Assembly: GCA_003485905.1 (NCBI GenBank)
Contig: DNHK01000046.1
Location: forward strand, 1-7,314
Reading direction: 5' to 3'
Source: Gammaproteobacteria bacterium
Lineage (GTDB): Bacteria > Pseudomonadota > Gammaproteobacteria > Arenicellales > Arenicellaceae
Length of the DNA: 7,314 nt
Below the pieces are notes generated by a model. The model was given only the letters and a program-made list of their open reading frames with translations. It did not search any database and was not told the origin of the DNA. Of this stretch, positions 391 through 7,314 are shown one piece after another; the stretch's first letter is position 1; each line of letters begins with the position of its first letter. The position numbers were made by a program, and so were the translations under genes.

Positions 391-1665
391 CTAAACGTTA
401 GCCTGCGTTACCGCCCCGAGCTGTACAGCAGCCCAATCTTGATCGGTTGGCAAACGCAAGGCCTTAGGACCTCCAGATTTCTCTTCGTGGTGCGGGTGAC
501 CAGCACCAGACCACATTTGGCGATCGGAGTTCACCGCTGCCTGGTAAAGTCGATATGCTCCCTCAGGATCCATAATTCGATCTGTCCGTCCGTAACCAAT
601 CAACATAGGACACTCAATATTCTTTGCAACATGTTCCACCGTGTAGTCCTTAAGTTTTCGCCGCGCATCGGCCAAATCATCAGCGCCTATAATCCAGCGT
701 ACACGATCCTGAATAGGCGTATAGAATTCAAATAAATCAGACAGAACATCATGGGAACCAGCAGTAGTCCAAACCGCCTTGATTCGACTATCGCCACTGG
801 CTGCTCTCGGTGCCGAGTACCCGCCCATGCTAACCCCACGCAACCCGATACGATCCGAATCCACATCCGAGCGTGTCTCCAAATAATCAATTAGCGGTGA
901 CACCAATCTTTCAGTATCTGGCGGCATGTAAAGGTTCTGCAGTCGTTTCGGCGCACCTTGACCGGGCAAATCTACCACCAGATACGCCATACCACGTGAG
1001 GTATATCCGCCGGCACCTAGAATTGTATTTTCAGCTAGTGAGTCAGCGCCTTGATAAGCAATTACCGTTGGGAATCGCGTTCCTTCGGGTCCACCTGGCT
1101 TGCGAAAATATCCGCCCAACTGATTGCCATCAACATTGATGGTAACTCGCTCAAATGGTGCGGGTACCATTTGGTAGGCCTTATCGAAAAATTCACGAAA
1201 TTTATTGTATCCCGCCATCATGGTGTCATCTGTATCTTCTTGATAAACGATGGACAATCGATGGAAACGGCTTGCACGTAGATAGAATCGATTTGCCGAT
1301 ACATTTAGGCCCTTTTCTTCATAGCCCTGAGCGATCTCCTCATTAATCTGTGCAACCCGATTCCATTCCTCATACCAAGACAAGGGGTCGAAAGGCCGCA
1401 TTCGCTGCGCAACTTCAAGCTCATGAGGATCATCGGTGTATATAGATTGATTCAGCCGGATCTCCATTTGACCACCGCCGACGATGGGATGTCCCGTATA
1501 AAGTCTTTCTGCGTCCCGACCTGCCACATCCCCCACGTAAAGATTTCCCGGCCCCAGGTCCTGAGCAAACGCACGTGATCCGAATGCCGCTGCTACAAGT
1601 GGTGCACCAGAGGACACCCCACCCCATTTCATAAGGCTACGACGAGTAAATTTGAATTCTGACAT
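391..1665 (-). CDS. Tat-exported FrsA-like alpha/beta hydrolase (esterase/C-C hydrolase type)
   Basis: 424 residues. The N-terminus carries a twin-arginine signal: T-R-R-S-L-M-K at 7-13, an alanine-rich core, and probable cleavage after A-F-A at 32-34. The protein is therefore expected to fold in the cytoplasm and act in the periplasm. Residues about 85-165 form a helical cap region (DPLSWYEEW near 93-101, NRFYLRASRFHRLS near 125-138), as in FrsA/DUF1100-like hydrolases and 2,6-dihydroxypseudooxynicotine hydrolase relatives. The catalytic alpha/beta fold follows. The nucleophile elbow is G-V-S-M-G with Ser279, the likely acid is Asp362 in GRTDRIMDP, and the likely base is His390 in GAGHPHH; His392 and His393 are alternatives. 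The ATG at 1663-1665 is preceded by AGGGAG at 7-nt spacing, which supports this start. Upstream lies a strong promoter, downstream a terminator, so it is probably monocistronic. The substrate cannot be read from the sequence; acetyl-ester, lactone or C-C bond hydrolysis are all possible for the fold. Confidence 0.85.
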   Translation of the reverse strand: MSEFKFTRRSLMKWGGVSSGAPLVAAAFGSRAFAQDLGPGNLYVGDVAGRDAERLYTGHPIVGGGQMEIRLNQSIYTDDPHELEVAQRMRPFDPLSWYEEWNRVAQINEEIAQGYEEKGLNVSANRFYLRASRFHRLSIVYQEDTDDTMMAGYNKFREFFDKAYQMVPAPFERVTINVDGNQLGGYFRKPGGPEGTRFPTVIAYQGADSLAENTILGAGGYTSRGMAYLVVDLPGQGAPKRLQNLYMPPDTERLVSPLIDYLETRSDVDSDRIGLRGVSMGGYSAPRAASGDSRIKAVWTTAGSHDVLSDLFEFYTPIQDRVRWIIGADDLADARRKLKDYTVEHVAKNIECPMLIGYGRTDRIMDPEGAYRLYQAAVNSDRQMWSGAGHPHHEEKSGGPKALRLPTDQDWAAVQLGAVTQANV

Positions 1666-1782: not shown

Positions 1783-1797
1783 ACTGCCGTAGGCAGT
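1783..1797. repeat. Inverted repeat ACTGCC-gta-GGCAGT
   Basis: Two perfect 6-bp arms (1783-1788 and 1792-1797) are separated by 3 bp. It lies between the divergently transcribed hydrolase and small membrane protein genes. There is no T tract, so it is not a typical terminator; it could be an operator dyad. Function is not determinable from sequence alone. Confidence 0.35.
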
Positions 1798-1865
1798 ACG
1801 TCGCACGATAAAACCGAATATTCGAATAAACCTATCTACCGGCATCATTCCTATCCAACCCAATC

Positions 1866-1879
1866 TTGATCCAGATCAA
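1866..1879 (+). promoter_or_regulatory. FNR/ANR binding box upstream of the small membrane protein
   Basis: TTGATCCAGATCAA matches the FNR/ANR consensus TTGAT-N4-ATCAA at every defined position. Downstream, TGC-TACGCT (extended -10, hexamer 1901-1906) or TATAGC (1906-1911) could serve as the -10. They put the transcription start near 1913-1918 and the box centre at about -40 to -46, the position of class II FNR-activated promoters. No good -35 hexamer is present, as expected for an activator-dependent promoter. Inference: the downstream gene at 1945 is switched on under oxygen limitation. Confidence 0.75.
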
Positions 1880-1931
1880 TTGTTGTTCAGAGCCGGTTGC
1901 TACGCTATAGCTTACTCAATGTCTCTCACCT

Positions 1932-1940
1932 TAAGGAGGT
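1932..1940 (+). promoter_or_regulatory. Near-ideal ribosome binding site of the 38-aa gene
   Basis: TAAGGAGGT is fully complementary to the 3' end of 16S rRNA, and its GGAGG core ends 5 nt before the ATG at 1945. No other gene in the window has as strong a site. This is the main reason for treating the short frame as a real, well-translated gene. Confidence 0.8.
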
Positions 1941-1944
1941 CCGC

Positions 1945-2061
1945 ATGGATCAAGTAATCTTCACTATCGCCGCCGCACTAGCCATCGTGTCAGTAGGCAG
2001 CATTATAGGAATATTGATTGCTATTGGTTCCGGCAAACTATACAACGGAATCCATGAATAG
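1945..2061 (+). CDS. 38-residue single-span membrane protein under FNR-box control
   Basis: The frame ATG...TAG encodes MDQVIFTIAAALAIVSVGSI followed by IGILIAIGSGKLYNGIHE. Residues about 4-28 form one uninterrupted hydrophobic helix. They include a small-residue packing pattern G18-x3-G22-x3-A26 of the kind that drives helix-helix association. The tail from K31 to E38 is short and polar. The gene has its own probable promoter with a perfect FNR/ANR box and a near-perfect ribosome binding site, and no gene overlaps it. I do not recognise the family. It has the size of small accessory subunits of terminal oxidases such as CydX or CcoM, but it does not look like the sequences I recall for either, and no oxidase gene is nearby. 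Plausible roles are a small subunit or modulator of a low-oxygen respiratory complex. It was probably missed by gene callers because of its length. Confidence 0.75.
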   Translation: MDQVIFTIAAALAIVSVGSIIGILIAIGSGKLYNGIHE

Positions 2062-2084
2062 CATGTAAATTAGACGACGCTTTC

Positions 2085-2142
2085 TTAGCGAGGTTTCTAC
2101 TAGCGATAGCGTAGTATTAGTAGAACTTACGGCTAGCGCTAA
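2085..2142. repeat. Nested inverted repeats between convergent genes
   Basis: Between the end of the 38-aa gene and the end of the convergent lipoprotein gene, TTAGCG (2085-2090) is complementary to CGCTAA (2137-2142). Inside this pair, TTCTACTA (2095-2102) is complementary to TAGTAGAA (2118-2125). The pentamer TAGCG occurs four times in this stretch. Such a folded element between convergent genes could end transcription from both sides, but neither side has a clear T tract. A different structural or protein-binding role is equally possible. Confidence 0.4.
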
Positions 2143-2162
2143 TTCCTCACCAACCTGTTAGT

Positions 2163-3047
2163 CTAATTAACAACCTTGCTAGATAAATCATCAAGAATAT
2201 CTGCGATGGCGATCATGCGAGTCTCAACAGATAACTTTTGATCGTCCGTCATACTGATTAATAGCTCATGCAACATGGATTCCAACCGGCTGACGTTATT
2301 CTCCCATTCCTCTGGCGTAAGCTCCTCCTCTAGTTGATAGCCAAGTGCTAGGTGCCTTTTAAGTACAGTCAGATTGGGCGACCCAGCTTGTTGATCTATC
2401 ATACTAAACAGCTCTTCTACCCAATTTCGCCAAAGTGCCCAATCTTCCCCCTGATCGTCATCACCGACAGCCCGCCCCTCAAAGCGATTTGTCATAATAG
2501 CGACTTGCTCAGAAGATAAGCGCCAACCTATCTGCTTAAAGATATTGGTCATCCGGTCCACTTGTCGCCGTACTCTAGCTTCAGGCGTTCGCTTATCTCG
2601 CCTTTCTTTAGCTTCGCGAAATATCTCATCAACATGATCCCTCGCTTGAGCCAACTGCTCCGGTGATACGGTTAACAGTATTTCTGGGGACTTGTTTAAC
2701 GGAAACTCGATATTAAAATCACGCCGGAAAGCCAACCCATCTCGAATCAATTGAGCGACCCCGGATCGGTCGGGCTCTTGGCTTTTTATCAATGGCACAA
2801 AGCTGGTTCGAACCCACTCACTGTATCTAGGTAATTCATTCCTACGGTGCCATAAATGGAAGGCGCTAACCTCCACATCCAACCAGAGCTCCTGCTCAGG
2901 CGTTAAATCAGCGTATTCACGAAAGGTTTTTTCGATCTCGTTATCGAGCCGTTCGTATAAAGCATCAATTACAAAACCATTCGCCCCGCAGGACAACAGC
3001 ACGACACTCACTGCAACAACAGCTAATTTCTTCACCCACCTTTCCAT
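2163..3047 (-). CDS. DUF6279-type lipoprotein
   Basis: 294 residues. The N-terminus is a lipoprotein signal: basic MERWVKK, a hydrophobic core, and a lipobox L17-L18-S19-C20. Lipidation at Cys20 is expected, and with Gly rather than Asp at +2 the default is outer-membrane sorting. The mature protein is helical and highly charged. The segment ALYERLDNEIEK...YADLTPEQELWLD...WHRRNELPRYSEW (about 29-83) matches the pattern I know from the gammaproteobacterial DUF6279 family: Y.R.D-type start, DLT.EQ..WLD, then W.R..ELPRY. The length of about 290 is also usual for that family. Two further TPEQ/SPEQ/TPEEW-type helix starts recur along the chain. No catalytic motif is visible and the family has no established function. 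The ATG at 3045-3047 is preceded by AAGGAG at a rather long 11-nt spacing. It is divergent from the DUF442-rimO unit and convergent with the 38-aa gene. Confidence 0.8.
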   Translation of the reverse strand: MERWVKKLAVVAVSVVLLSCGANGFVIDALYERLDNEIEKTFREYADLTPEQELWLDVEVSAFHLWHRRNELPRYSEWVRTSFVPLIKSQEPDRSGVAQLIRDGLAFRRDFNIEFPLNKSPEILLTVSPEQLAQARDHVDEIFREAKERRDKRTPEARVRRQVDRMTNIFKQIGWRLSSEQVAIMTNRFEGRAVGDDDQGEDWALWRNWVEELFSMIDQQAGSPNLTVLKRHLALGYQLEEELTPEEWENNVSRLESMLHELLISMTDDQKLSVETRMIAIADILDDLSSKVVN

Positions 3048-3178
3048 ACTCTCGAATACTCCTTTCGTTTAAACCCGCACTAGCTATATATAAAACAGTT
3101 TCGCTAGACTTCGTTTCGGTTTAGCGCAGCGAAGTGGCATAATCGCCCCGAAAACCTAGTCAGGCAAGAACCATTACC
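3048..3178. promoter_or_regulatory. Divergent promoter region between the lipoprotein and DUF442-rimO
   Basis: For the plus-strand unit, CATAAT at 3138-3143 is preceded by TG-g (3135-3137), an extended -10, with a poor -35 (TTTCGG or TTCGGT near 3114-3120). The start would be near 3150. For the minus-strand lipoprotein gene, a TATATATA tract at 3085-3092 could supply a -10, with no good -35. Competing 5-6 bp inverted repeats overlap the plus promoter: TTCGCT 3100-3105 with AGCGAA 3128-3133, ACTTCG 3108-3113 with CGAAGT 3130-3135, and CGCTA 3102-3106 with TAGCG 3122-3126. These may be operators or coincidence. Confidence 0.4.
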
Positions 3179-3610
3179 ATGCAGCAACTATTTCAAAACC
3201 TACTCGTCGCAGGCCAATTGCAGGCGGATGATTTTAAACTCGCAAAAGAAAAAGGCGTCACGGTTATCATAAACAACCGACCCGACGACGAACAAGTTGG
3301 GCAGTTGAGCTCGACAGAAGCTAAGGTGCTTTGCGACGAGCTCGGTATCGAATACCACTACCTACCTATGGAAAACGGCAAACCATTACCCGATGGTTTG
3401 GTCGAACAAGTCTCCTCAGTAATTGACAATGCCACCGGCACCGTACTTGCTCATTGCCGCAGCGGAATGAGAAGCACGATTTTGTGGGCTCTGGGTAAAG
3501 TAAGCCAGGGCAAATTAACGTCTGATGAAGCGTTTGCCTGTGCAAACAATGCAGGAATAAATCTGTCTAACGTAAAACCCATGCTCGATTCAATTCAACC
3601 CGAGACATAG
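3179..3610 (+). CDS. DUF442 / TIGR01244-family sulfurtransferase
   Basis: 143 residues, with no signal peptide, so cytoplasmic. The N-terminal half has the family hallmark INNRPDDE (31-38), and the C-terminal half a rhodanese-type active loop H-C-R-S-G-M-R-S with Cys93. The loop would hold a persulfide on Cys93, cradled by backbone amides and the arginines. Proteins of this family (also the N-terminal domain of Blh-type proteins) resemble dual-specificity phosphatases in fold. However, the spacing here is C-x4-R with a following S, as in rhodaneses, rather than the phosphatase C-x5-R, so sulfur transfer is the better reading. The full length fits the stand-alone form. The start ATG has only a weak AGGCAAG-like ribosome binding site. 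The gene ends 15 nt before rimO on the same strand with no terminator between, so the two are almost certainly co-transcribed. Confidence 0.85.
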   Translation: MQQLFQNLLVAGQLQADDFKLAKEKGVTVIINNRPDDEQVGQLSSTEAKVLCDELGIEYHYLPMENGKPLPDGLVEQVSSVIDNATGTVLAHCRSGMRSTILWALGKVSQGKLTSDEAFACANNAGINLSNVKPMLDSIQPET

Positions 3611-3625
3611 AAGCGTATCCGCCTT

Positions 3626-4951
3626 ATGCAAGAGAATGCTTCCCACAAAGTTGGATTTATTAGCCTCGGTTGCCCAAAAGCTTTAGTTGATTCCGAACGG
3701 ATATTGACAGAGCTAAAATCGGATGGCTATGATGTCGTGCCCACCTACGATCAAGCAGATTTAGTAATCGTTAATACATGTGGATTTATTGATGCCGCCA
3801 AGGCCGAATCCCTAGAAACCATTGGCGAAGCGCTTAATGAGAACGGCAAAGTTATTGTTACCGGGTGCATGGGTGCCAATGCTGAAGACATAACCATTCA
3901 TCATCCAAGTGTACTAAGCGTGACCGGACCACAAGCCTATGAAGAAGTGATGTCCGCCGTACATCAACACCTTCCCAAGCCGACGAATCATGCCCCTTTT
4001 GATCCACTTGTTCCTCCACAAGGGGTCAAACTAACCCCCCGGCACTATGCTTACCTTAAAATTTCTGAAGGTTGCAACCACCGTTGCAGCTTTTGCATCA
4101 TTCCATCCATGCGCGGCAATCTGGTTAGTCGCCCCGCCGACGCGGTGTTGGCGGAAGCGGAACGCCTGGTCGAATCTGGTGTACAAGAAATTTTGGTGAT
4201 ATCACAGGATACCAGCGCGTATGGCGTCGATTTAAAATATAAGACCACGTTTTGGAACGGTCGTCCGGTTAAAACCAACATGGTTGAACTGGCAAAAGCG
4301 TTGGGGTCTCTTGGTGTTTGGGTTCGTATGCACTATGTCTACCCCTACCCGCATGTTGATGATGTGATCCCATTAATGGCCGATAATATCGTATTGCCAT
4401 ACCTAGATATCCCATTCCAACATGGGAGCCCAAAAATTCTTAAGGCTATGAAGCGCCCCGGCCAAATTGAAAAAACTCTTGATCGGGTCCATGCCTGGCG
4501 CAAACAATGCCCAGATTTGACCATTCGAAGTACATTTATCGTCGGGTTTCCGGGCGAAACAGATGAAGATTTTCAAATGCTGTTGGATTTTCAGCGTGAA
4601 GCGCAACTCGATAGAGTTGGATGTTTTCAATACTCGCCTGTCGACGGTGCCAGCGCAAATAAACTAGCGGATCATGTACCTGAAGATGTTAAGCAAGAAC
4701 GACACGCCATATTCATGGAAGCACAAGCGGGTATTAGCACTCAAAGACTAAGCAGTAAAGTGGGGAAAAATATCGAGGTTCTAATCGACCAGATTGGCGA
4801 TGACGGAGCCATTGGACGAAGCTGGGCGGATGCCCCTGAAATTGACGGCCGAGTATTACTCGAAGATGAATTCGATCACAAACCTGGAGATCGGGTGCAA
4901 GCGGTTGTTGAAGAAGCCGATACGCATGATTTGTGGGCTCGCTCGATATAA
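3626..4951 (+). CDS. rimO: Ribosomal protein S12 methylthiotransferase RimO
   Basis: 441 residues, the usual RimO length. RimO is a radical-SAM enzyme that adds a methylthio group to the beta carbon of a conserved aspartate in ribosomal protein S12 (Asp88 in E. coli). The N-terminal methylthiotransferase domain carries the three cysteines of the auxiliary [4Fe-4S] cluster: Cys16 ([12 protein letters not shown]), Cys52 (NTCGFID) and Cys81 (TGCMGA). The radical-SAM CxxxCxxC motif is at Cys150, Cys154 and Cys157 ([17 protein letters not shown]). Further RimO signatures include [39 protein letters not shown] and [13 protein letters not shown]-terminal TRAM domain (about 375-441) follows, with [12 protein letters not shown]. 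Alignment to E. coli RimO from memory is close throughout. One small difference is MRGNLVSRP, where E. coli has MRGDLVSRP. There is no clear Shine-Dalgarno, so translation may be coupled to the upstream DUF442 gene, 15 nt away. It is convergent with the lipoprotein gene ending at 5026. Confidence 0.97.
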
Positions 4952-5025
4952 GCCCGATCAATACAAATTTCAACGCACCTATAACAACATCATACAACGA
5001 TATAGTAACGCCAAAACGCAAGCAA

Positions 5026-5472
5026 CTACTGACTATCAGACTCGCCACTTAAAGACGCTTCTTCATCATCCAAAGCGTCGGTAACCGGATTATCGTTTTG
5101 CACATTCGCTATGTTCTGCAGCGCTCCGCCAAAATCAATCTCACCAGATTGCACACTAGTCGACACGGGCTCTTCTGGGGCTGGCACTTTCGCTGCAGCA
5201 GCAGGGTTCTCTCGCTCGGCAAGTGCCGTATAGAATGTCGGGCATTGCAGACTGTTCCACATTTTTTGCGACATCTCGCTGGTCTCTAATGACGACAACA
5301 AATCATCGCAACGAGTCTTACGGGTATCTAATATTTTACTATTAGTCGCACGCACCTCATCAATTTGACTGGTATCTGGCGATTGACTTGTTGCAGGTTC
5401 AGAGTCGCAACCACTTAGCAACACCCCAAGCCACAGGATGGCCAGCGAATTGAATTTAATCAGCTGCCGCAT
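5026..5472 (-). CDS. Small lipoprotein encoded overlapping msrA
   Basis: 148 residues, family not recognised. The signal peptide is basic MRQLIK, a hydrophobic core, and a textbook lipobox L-S-G-C with Cys22. Asp23 at +2 would favour retention in the inner membrane by the E. coli Lol rule. The mature part has a low-complexity Ser/Thr/Pro-rich linker, then a short helical segment with two cysteines, Cys55 and Cys77, spaced so that they could form a disulfide in the periplasm. After that come an Ala/Pro/Glu-rich stretch and an acidic tail ([17 protein letters not shown]). The start codon lies inside the 3' end of msrA (17-nt overlap), which indicates a shared transcript and probable translational coupling. 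No catalytic motif is visible. The link to methionine sulfoxide repair is inferred from position only. Confidence 0.75.
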
Positions 5473-6094
5473 ACGTCACCCCGGTGCCACCTAACCCACA
5501 ATACCCCGCAGGATTCTTAGCTAAATACTGCTGATGATAGTCTTCAGCGTAATAAAACTCACCTGCAGCTTGTATTTCAGTAGTAATGTCCCCCATGTTC
5601 GCAGCACGCAGAACCTTTTGGTAATTCCGTTTACTTTCTTGCGCTAGGTTATATTGCTCCTCCGTACTTGTATAAATGCCTGATCGATACTGAGTACCTG
5701 CATCGTTACCCTGACGCATCCCTTGAGTTGGATTATGCCCCTCCCAAAATGTTTTAAGCAGTTCGTTAAAACCGATTTCTTGAGGACGATACACGACCAA
5801 AACAACCTCATTGTGCCCAGTCTGGCCGCTACAAACCTCTTGATAGGTAGGGTTTAAAGTAAAACCTGCTGAATAACCAACGGCCGTCGTCACCACTCCA
5901 GGCAACTGCCAAAACTTTTTTTCTGCCCCCCAAAAACAACCCATCCCAAAAATTACTGATAATGCTCCGTCTTCAAAAGGCTCTTTCAACGGCTCACCGC
6001 ATACGTAATGCGTGTGCGATGTTTCTATTGGATCAGGGCGGCCTGGCAACGCTTCCGCCTCAGATATGATATTTGTCTTGCTACTAGAAAACAT
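5456..6094 (-). CDS. msrA: Peptide methionine-(S)-S-oxide reductase MsrA, E. coli type
   Basis: 212 residues, the same length as E. coli MsrA. It reduces the S-epimer of methionine sulfoxide in proteins and has no signal peptide, so it is cytoplasmic. The catalytic motif is G-C-F-W-G with nucleophile Cys53. Other family signatures are CSGQTGHNE (Cys88), [17 protein letters not shown] and [12 protein letters not shown]. The resolving cysteine is Cys199 in [10 protein letters not shown], equivalent to E. coli Cys198. The second recycling cysteine (E. coli Cys206 in GVCLPP) is replaced by Thr207 in GVTYAAAD. The N-terminal extension (about 1-47, with ALPGRPDPI) is the kind seen in the E. coli branch. 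The ATG at 6092-6094 is preceded by CGAGG at a good 6-nt spacing. It is the first gene of a two-gene unit with the overlapping lipoprotein, and divergent from the SRPBCC gene. Confidence 0.96.
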
Positions 6095-6216
6095 TCCAAG
6101 CCTCGTTGACTAATTAATGAGCGTCGGATTTCAGGTACTTTAGTAGAGGCTACTACTGATCTACAATTTGTCCAGTTACTATAGCTACTCAATCGCGACT
6201 CAACAAACCATTTAAT
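6095..6216. promoter_or_regulatory. Divergent regulatory region between msrA and the SRPBCC gene, with a TAGTAG/CTACTA dyad
   Basis: The most distinct element is TAGTAG-agg-CTACTA at 6141-6155, two perfect 6-bp arms around a 3-bp centre. It sits between the two genes and could be a shared operator. For the plus strand, TACAAT at 6162-6167 is a plausible -10 without a good -35. Read on the minus strand, TACTAA/CTAAAG within and beside the dyad could act as a -10 for msrA, with TTGTAG upstream. Core promoter assignments here are weak. Confidence 0.35.
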
Positions 6217-6774
6217 ATGAAGTTCGTTCGAATCATACAACTTGTAATGATGTTACCCCTAATGTTGGTTGCCATTGGCTATACCTTGCCACCTAGCAGC
6301 CATGCCGAAAGTGAAATCGTCATTCACGCTGAACCAAAATCAATTTATAGCTTCCTAAACACCCCTGGGAATCACCCCTTATGGGCGCCGTGGGTATACA
6401 ACCCACAACAACCAGCGGAACTTGAAATTTCAGGTAGTGCTGAAGGTAAAGGGGCCAAACTGTATTGGCGAAACACCGACAATGGCCTGCTCAGTGACAA
6501 GATAACGAACGGAGAAACAACTATTACATCGAGTATTCCGTATAAATTTCTTACCGGTGACCTCGTATTTAACAATGTGCCTACGGCATCATACAAATTC
6601 ACCATCTACAATAATAAGGCGAATACCCAGGCACGCATACTATTTCAATATCAATCACTAGAGAAAGGGCCAATGAATAGGTTAAGTGCAGCCATGTTTG
6701 GTAACGATATAAAATCCGAACTCGATATGTCATTAAATCGGTTAAAGTCAATCGCGGAAACCGTAAGCGACTAG
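6217..6774 (+). CDS. Exported SRPBCC (START-like/polyketide-cyclase fold) protein
   Basis: 185 residues. The N-terminus (basic MKFVR, hydrophobic core to about residue 22, then S-H-A at 28-30) is a Sec signal peptide with probable cleavage after Ala30, so the domain is expected in the periplasm. The mature part begins ESEIVIHAEPKSIYSFLNTP followed by GNHPLWAPW. This is the first strand, the A-P..I-type helix and the tryptophan-rich segment of the SRPBCC ligand-binding fold. A C-terminal long helix (LSAAMFGNDIKSELDMSLNRLKSIAETV) closes the cavity in this fold and matches the family pattern. SRPBCC proteins bind hydrophobic ligands or act as cyclases; the ligand here is unknown. No Shine-Dalgarno precedes the ATG; ATG codons at residues 11 and 12 are less likely starts because they would shorten the signal peptide. 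It is divergent from msrA and 83 bp upstream of the second msrA. Confidence 0.7.
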   Translation: MKFVRIIQLVMMLPLMLVAIGYTLPPSSHAESEIVIHAEPKSIYSFLNTPGNHPLWAPWVYNPQQPAELEISGSAEGKGAKLYWRNTDNGLLSDKITNGETTITSSIPYKFLTGDLVFNNVPTASYKFTIYNNKANTQARILFQYQSLEKGPMNRLSAAMFGNDIKSELDMSLNRLKSIAETVSD

Positions 6775-6792
6775 ATTGCCAATTATTAAATT

Positions 6793-6821
6793 ATAGACTT
6801 GCTTTGATATAGCCAGTCTAT
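6793..6821. repeat. Imperfect inverted repeat upstream of the second msrA
   Basis: ATAGACT-t-GCT (6793-6803) pairs with AGC-c-AGTCTAT (6811-6821) around a 7-nt loop: 7 bp, one mismatch, 3 bp. It lies just after the SRPBCC gene and is followed by a T-rich but interrupted stretch (TGTAGTATTTAAC, then CCTTTTT). It may be a weak terminator for that gene. It also overlaps possible -35 elements (TTGCTT at 6799, TTGATA at 6804) for the following msrA, so an operator role is possible. Confidence 0.4.
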
Positions 6822-6857
6822 TGTAGTATTTAACAACCTTTTTACAGAGATCCGCAT

Positions 6858-7314
6858 ATGAACTTACTGCTCCCACAACTAAATATTCGCATTATTAGAA
6901 TGGCGACAATTTCAGTTGTTGCAATCATCCTATTACACACAAATAGTTCTGTTGTTGCTGCAGAGCCCGCTACCGCCGTATTCGCGGGCGGATGCTTTTG
7001 GTGTACCGAATCAGATTTTGAAAAACTGGCAGGCGTTATCGAAGCAGAGTCGGGATATACCGATGGCCATGTAGAGAACCCTAGCTACAAGCAAGTTTCC
7101 GCAGGGGGAACCGGCCATACTGAAGGCGTTCTAGTTACCTATGACCCCGATGTGGTTAGCTACGAGGAACTTGTCGAATACTTCTGGCCAACGATAGACC
7201 CGACCCAAGCCGATGCCCAATTTTGTGATCACGGATCGCAATACCGTAGTGCTATTTATTACGACTCCCCTGAAGAGAAATCAATCGTCGAGGCGTCGCT
7301 TGCCAAGTTACAAG
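6858..7314 (+). CDS. msrA: Exported GCFWC-type peptide methionine sulfoxide reductase MsrA (3' end cut by window)
   Basis: The frame runs open from ATG 6858 to the window end, 152 codons plus one base. A Sec signal peptide is visible: basic patch near 11-14, hydrophobic core, and probable cleavage after A-A at 34-35 (SVVAA|EPATA). The enzyme is thus expected in the periplasm. The catalytic motif is G-G-C-F-W-C with nucleophile Cys46 and a second cysteine, Cys49, three residues on. This GCFWC class differs from the GCFWG class encoded at 5456-6094. Further MsrA signatures are SGYTDGHVENPSYKQVSAGG, TGHTEGV, and HGSQYRSAIYY preceded by Cys (QFCDHG). Met15 is an alternative start but would remove part of the basic region. 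The ribosome binding site is modest (CAGAGA, 7 nt before the ATG). It protects exported proteins from methionine oxidation by analogy with periplasmic Msr systems; its electron donor is not visible here. Confidence 0.92.
   Translation, partial: MNLLLPQLNIRIIRMATISVVAIILLHTNSSVVAAEPATAVFAGGCFWCTESDFEKLAGVIEAESGYTDGHVENPSYKQVSAGGTGHTEGVLVTYDPDVVSYEELVEYFWPTIDPTQADAQFCDHGSQYRSAIYYDSPEEKSIVEASLAKLQ

Follow-up and report, generated by a model that had tools for sequence, protein, structure and literature searches.

Small gene and its setting

FNR and ANR activate genes of low-oxygen respiration, and a perfect box of this type stands ahead of a frame of 38 codons in a gammaproteobacterial DNA stretch of 7,314 bases with 46.6% G+C (the whole of this stretch is called the window). 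The locus raises the question of whether so short a frame is a gene, which regulator reads the box, and what its product may serve. The frame (1945–2061) sits between a divergent hydrolase gene, with a beta-propeller gene behind it, and a convergent DUF6279 gene; no respiratory gene adjoins it in the window. Two genomes are used for comparison below: G001, an Arenicellaceae metagenome-assembled genome (L001, JAQWNC010000009.1) encoding a DUF6279 protein 84% identical to that of the window, and its relative G002. The features are as follows.

391–1665, minus strand: alpha/beta hydrolase gene with a Tat-type signal, divergent from the small gene; position kept in G001 and G002
1796–1951, plus strand: stretch absent from G001, containing the box, promoter, ribosome site and start codon
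1866–1879, plus strand: FNR-type box TTGATCCAGATCAA, the sole perfect match to TTGATNNNNATCAA in the window
1897–1909, plus strand: predicted extended -10 region TTGCTACGCTATA, with TG-C-TACGCT at 1898–1906; identical in G002 at 13 of 13 bases
About 1913, plus strand: predicted transcription start, placed from the -10 position
1932–1940, plus strand: ribosome binding site TAAGGAGGT, 4 bases before the ATG at 1945
1945–2061, plus strand: 38-codon gene for a predicted single-helix membrane protein, TAG stop (2059–2061) included
1966–2037, plus strand: conserved core, residues 8–31, with eight invariant residues
2163–3047, minus strand: DUF6279 gene, convergent with the small gene

The perfect FNR/ANR box claimed in the earlier note was confirmed, with zero mismatches to the consensus; base composition predicts about 0.010 such boxes in 7,314 bases, and five more sites in the window match with 1–2 mismatches. 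The possible extended -10 region at class II distance, also claimed there, agrees with our prediction, in which the box centre lies about 40.5 bases before the start near 1913. In the available text of PMC3688515, E. coli FNR sites at activated promoters with a known start are centred at -41.5 (±4) in 19 of 23 cases. A generic sigma-70 scan of 1660–2250 returned 0 promoters, with a mean of 1.9 in shuffled sequences. Because class II activator promoters often have no -35 element, this null result neither supports nor refutes the prediction. The ribosome site that had been noticed before the ATG is likewise there, and is strong.

A relic in G001

G001, the nearest relative found, aligns to positions 2–1795 (92% identity), 1952–4951 (84%) and 5085–7313 (78%) of the window, so that everything expected to drive the small gene falls in a stretch it lacks. 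Its remaining frame begins at codon 4 and is shifted by the loss of one base near the end. Over 31 codons, 9 of 93 bases differ from the window, 6 of the changes being nonsynonymous and 3 synonymous; the mainly synonymous pattern that had been suggested as a check was thus not seen, and no purifying selection is visible. This is expected, because the G001 copy is, judging from its sequence, a relic of the gene. Disruption of the frame in a close relative, named beforehand as a refuting sign, did occur here; read together with G002, however, the state of G001 indicates loss of a gene and not the absence of one.

The noncoding stretch 2062–2162 between the small gene and the DUF6279 gene is 88% identical to G001, versus 89% for the frame itself. 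Synonymous divergence of the hydrolase gene from G001 is 0.245, versus 0.66–1.43 in six other genes, a pattern in the sequences as though this tract had been recently exchanged. About 5 kb separate rimO from the next gene in G001, where the window has almost nothing (4951–5026), and about 4.9 kb separate a phosphatase-like gene from rimO in G002, where the window again has almost nothing (3610–3626). One SRPBCC-like gene is flanked by a pair of peptide methionine sulfoxide reductase genes of opposite orientation (5456–6094, minus; 6858–7313, plus), an arrangement kept in both G001 and G002.

An orthologue in G002

When window positions 1790–2170 were searched as DNA against 194 relatives of G001, a 46-base match was found in G002 besides that in G001, together with short matches in 20 other genomes. 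The best of the latter, 36 bases in G158, was rejected, its box being broken and no small frame recognisable. On the G002 contig (L123), an orthologue of the hydrolase gene (88 and 93% identity in two pieces) is again divergent from the small gene, and gamma-glutamyltranspeptidase is the other neighbour; the far-side neighbour thus differs from that in the window and G001. The sequence TCTTGATCCAGATCAAT, box included, is identical over 17 bases; the predicted -10 region lies 24.5 bases from the box centre, as in the window; and AAGGAGGT of the ribosome site is kept at an equal distance from the start codon, which is TTG in place of the ATG of the window. Between box and ribosome site the leader has 3 bases more than in the window.

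The G002 orthologue has 31 residues, 13 of 30 aligned residues being identical (43%). The 39 nucleotide differences from the window fall on the three codon positions as 12, 10 and 17. When 39 differences were placed at random in 20,000 trials, the protein score was equalled or bettered in 0.23% and the identity in 2.6%, and a stop codon arose in 57%. The mirror antisense frame is also open in both the window and G002, with a similarity score of 57 versus 55 for the sense frame, so the choice of strand follows not from frame similarity alone but from the box, the promoter, the ribosome site and the start codon. The joint conservation of box, ribosome site and frame, which the earlier note had proposed to look for, is therefore seen in G002 and not in G001, where promoter and start are lost and the frame is shifted, and G002 is the one genome besides the window with a co-conserved box. 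With the -10 region also kept there, the claim of a stand-alone small-protein gene stands, and 1945–2061 is almost certainly a real gene and not a chance frame.

A one-base shift divides the G002 hydrolase orthologue (L123:3757–5021) into two frames, which could reflect decay or an assembly error. A tetranucleotide comparison of G002 contigs was noisy and neither proved nor disproved misbinning.

The protein and its family

The protein has a Kyte-Doolittle maximum of 2.61 over a 19-residue span, and AlphaFold2, given three sequences, predicted a single helix at residues 2–37 (mean pLDDT 87.1), in agreement with the single-helix protein claimed earlier. An acidic N-terminus and Lys31 suggest an N-out/C-in orientation.

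A single-sequence protein search with the small protein found nothing. The 38-residue query hit 20 of the 194 relatives at E up to 1 and missed the G002 orthologue; apart from the G001 relic, these hits were taken as noise. The small frames at L005, L007, L011, L017, L018 and L020 have no perfect box, and within 250 bases ahead of the match no box with under two mismatches was found, in a scan in which minus-strand loci were misoriented. Searching 374 relatives with a profile gave matches (E up to 1) in 144 genomes, headed by G001 (3.6e-18) and G002 (1.0e-14) with the next at 0.003, and the small gene was recognised in these two alone. Among the 30 loci returned (L157–L186; frames shorter than about 110 residues with 200 bases of upstream sequence, in both orientations), a perfect box precedes the match in G002 alone.

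More distant members were found with profiles. P0001 (34 residues, E 5.8e-5) came from the profile built on window, G002 and relic, and P0003 (31 residues, E 1.5e-6) and P0004 (34 residues, E 4e-4) from the one built on window, G002 and P0001. P0005 (E 0.039) and P0006 (E 0.065), also from the latter, which would have 31 and 34 residues if begun at an inner ATG, are weak matches, insignificant alone, that were retained because all eight invariant positions are present; since word-seeded searching favours such matches, the count of invariant positions is somewhat inflated. P0002 was dropped as a chance match (E 0.59) confined, by inspection, to a signal-like stretch. In the resulting set of seven (window, G002, P0001 and P0003–P0006; P0002 and the relic left out), A13, S16, V17, G18, I20, L24, I27 and K31 are invariant in 7/7. 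Of the angles tried, 100 degrees per residue gives the strongest periodicity of conservation over residues 8–31 (P 0.0175), so one helix face seems constrained. The G18-x3-G22-x3-A26 packing pattern pointed out in the earlier note is present in the sequence, but only its G18 is conserved, G22 and A26 being variable; the conserved stripe consists instead of A13, S16/V17, I20, L24, I27 and K31.

None of the seven members matched a Pfam family at E up to 1. Three NCBIfam families, none of them CydX, matched one member each (E 0.026–0.46), far below cut-off for both families whose cut-offs are shown. A tblastn search of plasmids gave no match; of two IMG/VR scans one was without match and the other gave 88 pattern matches, none confirmed at 1e-3, a limit that a short true member could fail. 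A limited literature search returned no report of the family, which does not prove its absence from print. The family is thus new to Pfam and NCBIfam, and small membrane proteins belonging to low-oxygen regulons, such as CcoM or CydX, are a kind already known.

The regulator reading the box

The promoter resembles FNR/ANR class II promoters in its perfect TTGATNNNNATCAA box and predicted centre near -40.5, both kept in G002, and departs from them in that no FNR-family regulator was found in G001 or G002. In neither genome was a Crp-type HTH found above cut-off, as it was in 50 of the 61 genomes searched, nor a cNMP domain. An FNR protein of G007 used as query found 72% identical proteins in G005 and G006, a chance match only in G003, and no match in G001, G002 or G004. 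An HTH match below cut-off in G001 proved on inspection to be an IclR-type protein. Missing contigs could explain the result for G002, but a failure in both genomes carries weight. Either an fnr-type gene lies in sequence that these assemblies lack, or a different regulator reads the box.

Perfect boxes were counted in stretches fetched around them, frames of 100 residues or more being taken as coding. In G002, 6 of 18 are intergenic against 12.4% noncoding sequence (p 0.018); the figures for G001 are 2 of 15 against 15.1% (p 0.69). The six intergenic G002 boxes adjoin the small gene, ctaB of the aa3-type oxidase cluster, and ompW-like, b561-like, NHL and DUF6152 genes. According to the accessible part of PMC4886647, E. 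coli ompW is under FNR control from sites at -81.5 and -126.5. The reversed box pattern occurs 7 times in G001 versus 15 boxes and once in G002 versus 18, a control given no weight because the dinucleotides differ. The boxes next to the NHL-repeat and DUF6152 genes of G002 are at L126:2396–2409 and L129:2469–2482, and in L001 a beta-propeller-like gene and, by inspection, a DUF6152-like gene follow the hydrolase. On the sequence features described, the small gene is probably controlled by an FNR-family activator.

Respiratory enzymes and similarity to known small proteins

Four COX1-family genes are present in G002, namely an aa3-type gene (best match ctaD), ccoN, a fused ccoN/O/P-like gene and norB, with ccoN and norB both cut by contig ends. 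G001 has one, of the ctaD (aa3-type) kind, which like its G002 counterpart scores just under the model cut-off. A perfect box lies 137 bases before ctaB in the aa3-type oxidase cluster of G002; no box within one mismatch was found in the 14-kb stretch around the oxidase cluster of G001. The gene, the boxes and the low-oxygen enzymes thus occur together in G002 and are jointly missing in G001, a hint from two genomes only.

Some respiratory subunits of 30–40 residues were long overlooked. One of them, CcoM, a subunit of 36 residues in the cbb3 oxidase of Pseudomonas stutzeri, is alike in length; it consists of one helix and is encoded apart from its own oxidase. A ccoN fragment is present in G002. 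Profiles A6 and A7, however, gave no match above chance to any PDB chain (best E 0.23 and 0.66), CcoM presumably being among the chains searched. As stated in the available text of PMC10433244, CcoM is essential for low-oxygen adaptation. CydX/YbgT, the 37-residue subunit of cytochrome bd, is also similar in length and is described in the accessible parts of PMC4325964 and PMC6005532 as a hydrophobic single helix; it differs in that none of the 7 members has a Pfam match and that the small gene has no neighbouring cydAB in the window, its neighbours being the hydrolase and DUF6279 genes. YohP of E. coli (27 residues) is comparable as a tiny membrane protein of adverse conditions; it differs in that, according to PMC12719787, those conditions are starvation and stationary phase.

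Possible function and alternatives

In the mechanism proposed here, an FNR-family activator would switch on the small gene at low oxygen, by class II activation from a box centred about 40.5 bases before the start, and the single membrane helix would dock on a respiratory complex via the stripe A13-S16/V17-I20-L24-I27-K31. This combination, an FNR-type low-oxygen switch and a helix that docks against one face of a membrane-bound respiratory complex, is tentative, at slightly under an even chance. The same measure applies to the respiratory partner in itself, which is a guess worth testing; a haem-copper oxidase of the cbb3 or aa3 type or an NO reductase would be the first guess.

The protein might have no fixed partner and act on the bilayer itself, being made at low oxygen and lowering membrane potential or fluidity as a stress-type protein like YohP, which the available text of PMC12719787 reports to reduce both. 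Size, single helix and the lack of an adjoining respiratory gene in the window fit such a function, which is nevertheless unlikely: eight invariant residues and a preferred face exceed the apparent need of a bilayer-only helix, and loss of the gene in G001 accompanies a smaller oxidase set. Still less probable is that the protein assists the divergent Tat-exported hydrolase and the product of the beta-propeller gene behind it, the genes having moved together as a single module. The arrangement persists in all three genomes known to have a close hydrolase orthologue (window, G001 with its relic, and G002; distant relatives in G005 and G076 share 32–33% identity), G001 and G002 are the only ones among the 374 relatives in which the small gene was recognised, and two more G002 boxes adjoin NHL or DUF6152 genes. 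The G001 hydrolase, however, is intact (98% identity) beside a dead small gene, and in G002 an intact small gene stands next to a hydrolase frame that a shift interrupts (possibly an assembly error); owing to this double dissociation the hydrolase is a poor candidate partner.

Two other explanations concern the box. The gene may be real and its box read by a regulator other than FNR, with no oxygen control, which is compatible with either a bilayer function or a hydrolase helper. The FNR-family protein not found in G001 or G002 and the conservation of CCAG at the box centre, beyond what the FNR consensus demands, speak for this; the G002 boxes ahead of ctaB, ompW-like and b561-like genes, which are plausible low-oxygen targets, and a spacing that suits class II make it improbable. 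A small regulatory RNA with an incidental frame would have a model in E. coli fnrS, which FNR drives from -42.5 according to the part of PMC3688515 available. Such an RNA is very hard to reconcile with the ribosome site, start and frame kept in G002; moreover, no terminator-like site occurs at 1660–2250, the 3' stretch 2062–2162 folds only slightly better than shuffled sequences (z -1.36), and the single Rfam match in the window (E up to 1) lies elsewhere and is due to chance.

A respiratory helper under FNR-type control is thus the preferred reading. By a bolder extension, to which we give only a small chance, the protein would be the first representative of a family, not yet modelled, of oxygen-controlled helper subunits whose genes lie apart from those of the terminal oxidase or NO reductase that they serve, and which are lost along with the low-oxygen enzymes once a lineage becomes strictly aerobic. 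If the protein is a respiratory subunit or modulator, the contrast between G001 and G002 would provide a directly testable link to the low-oxygen enzymes, and the family signature A-x2-SVG[GS]I-x3-L-x2-I-x3-K would, should the respiratory role prove true, give a sequence handle for finding such parts.
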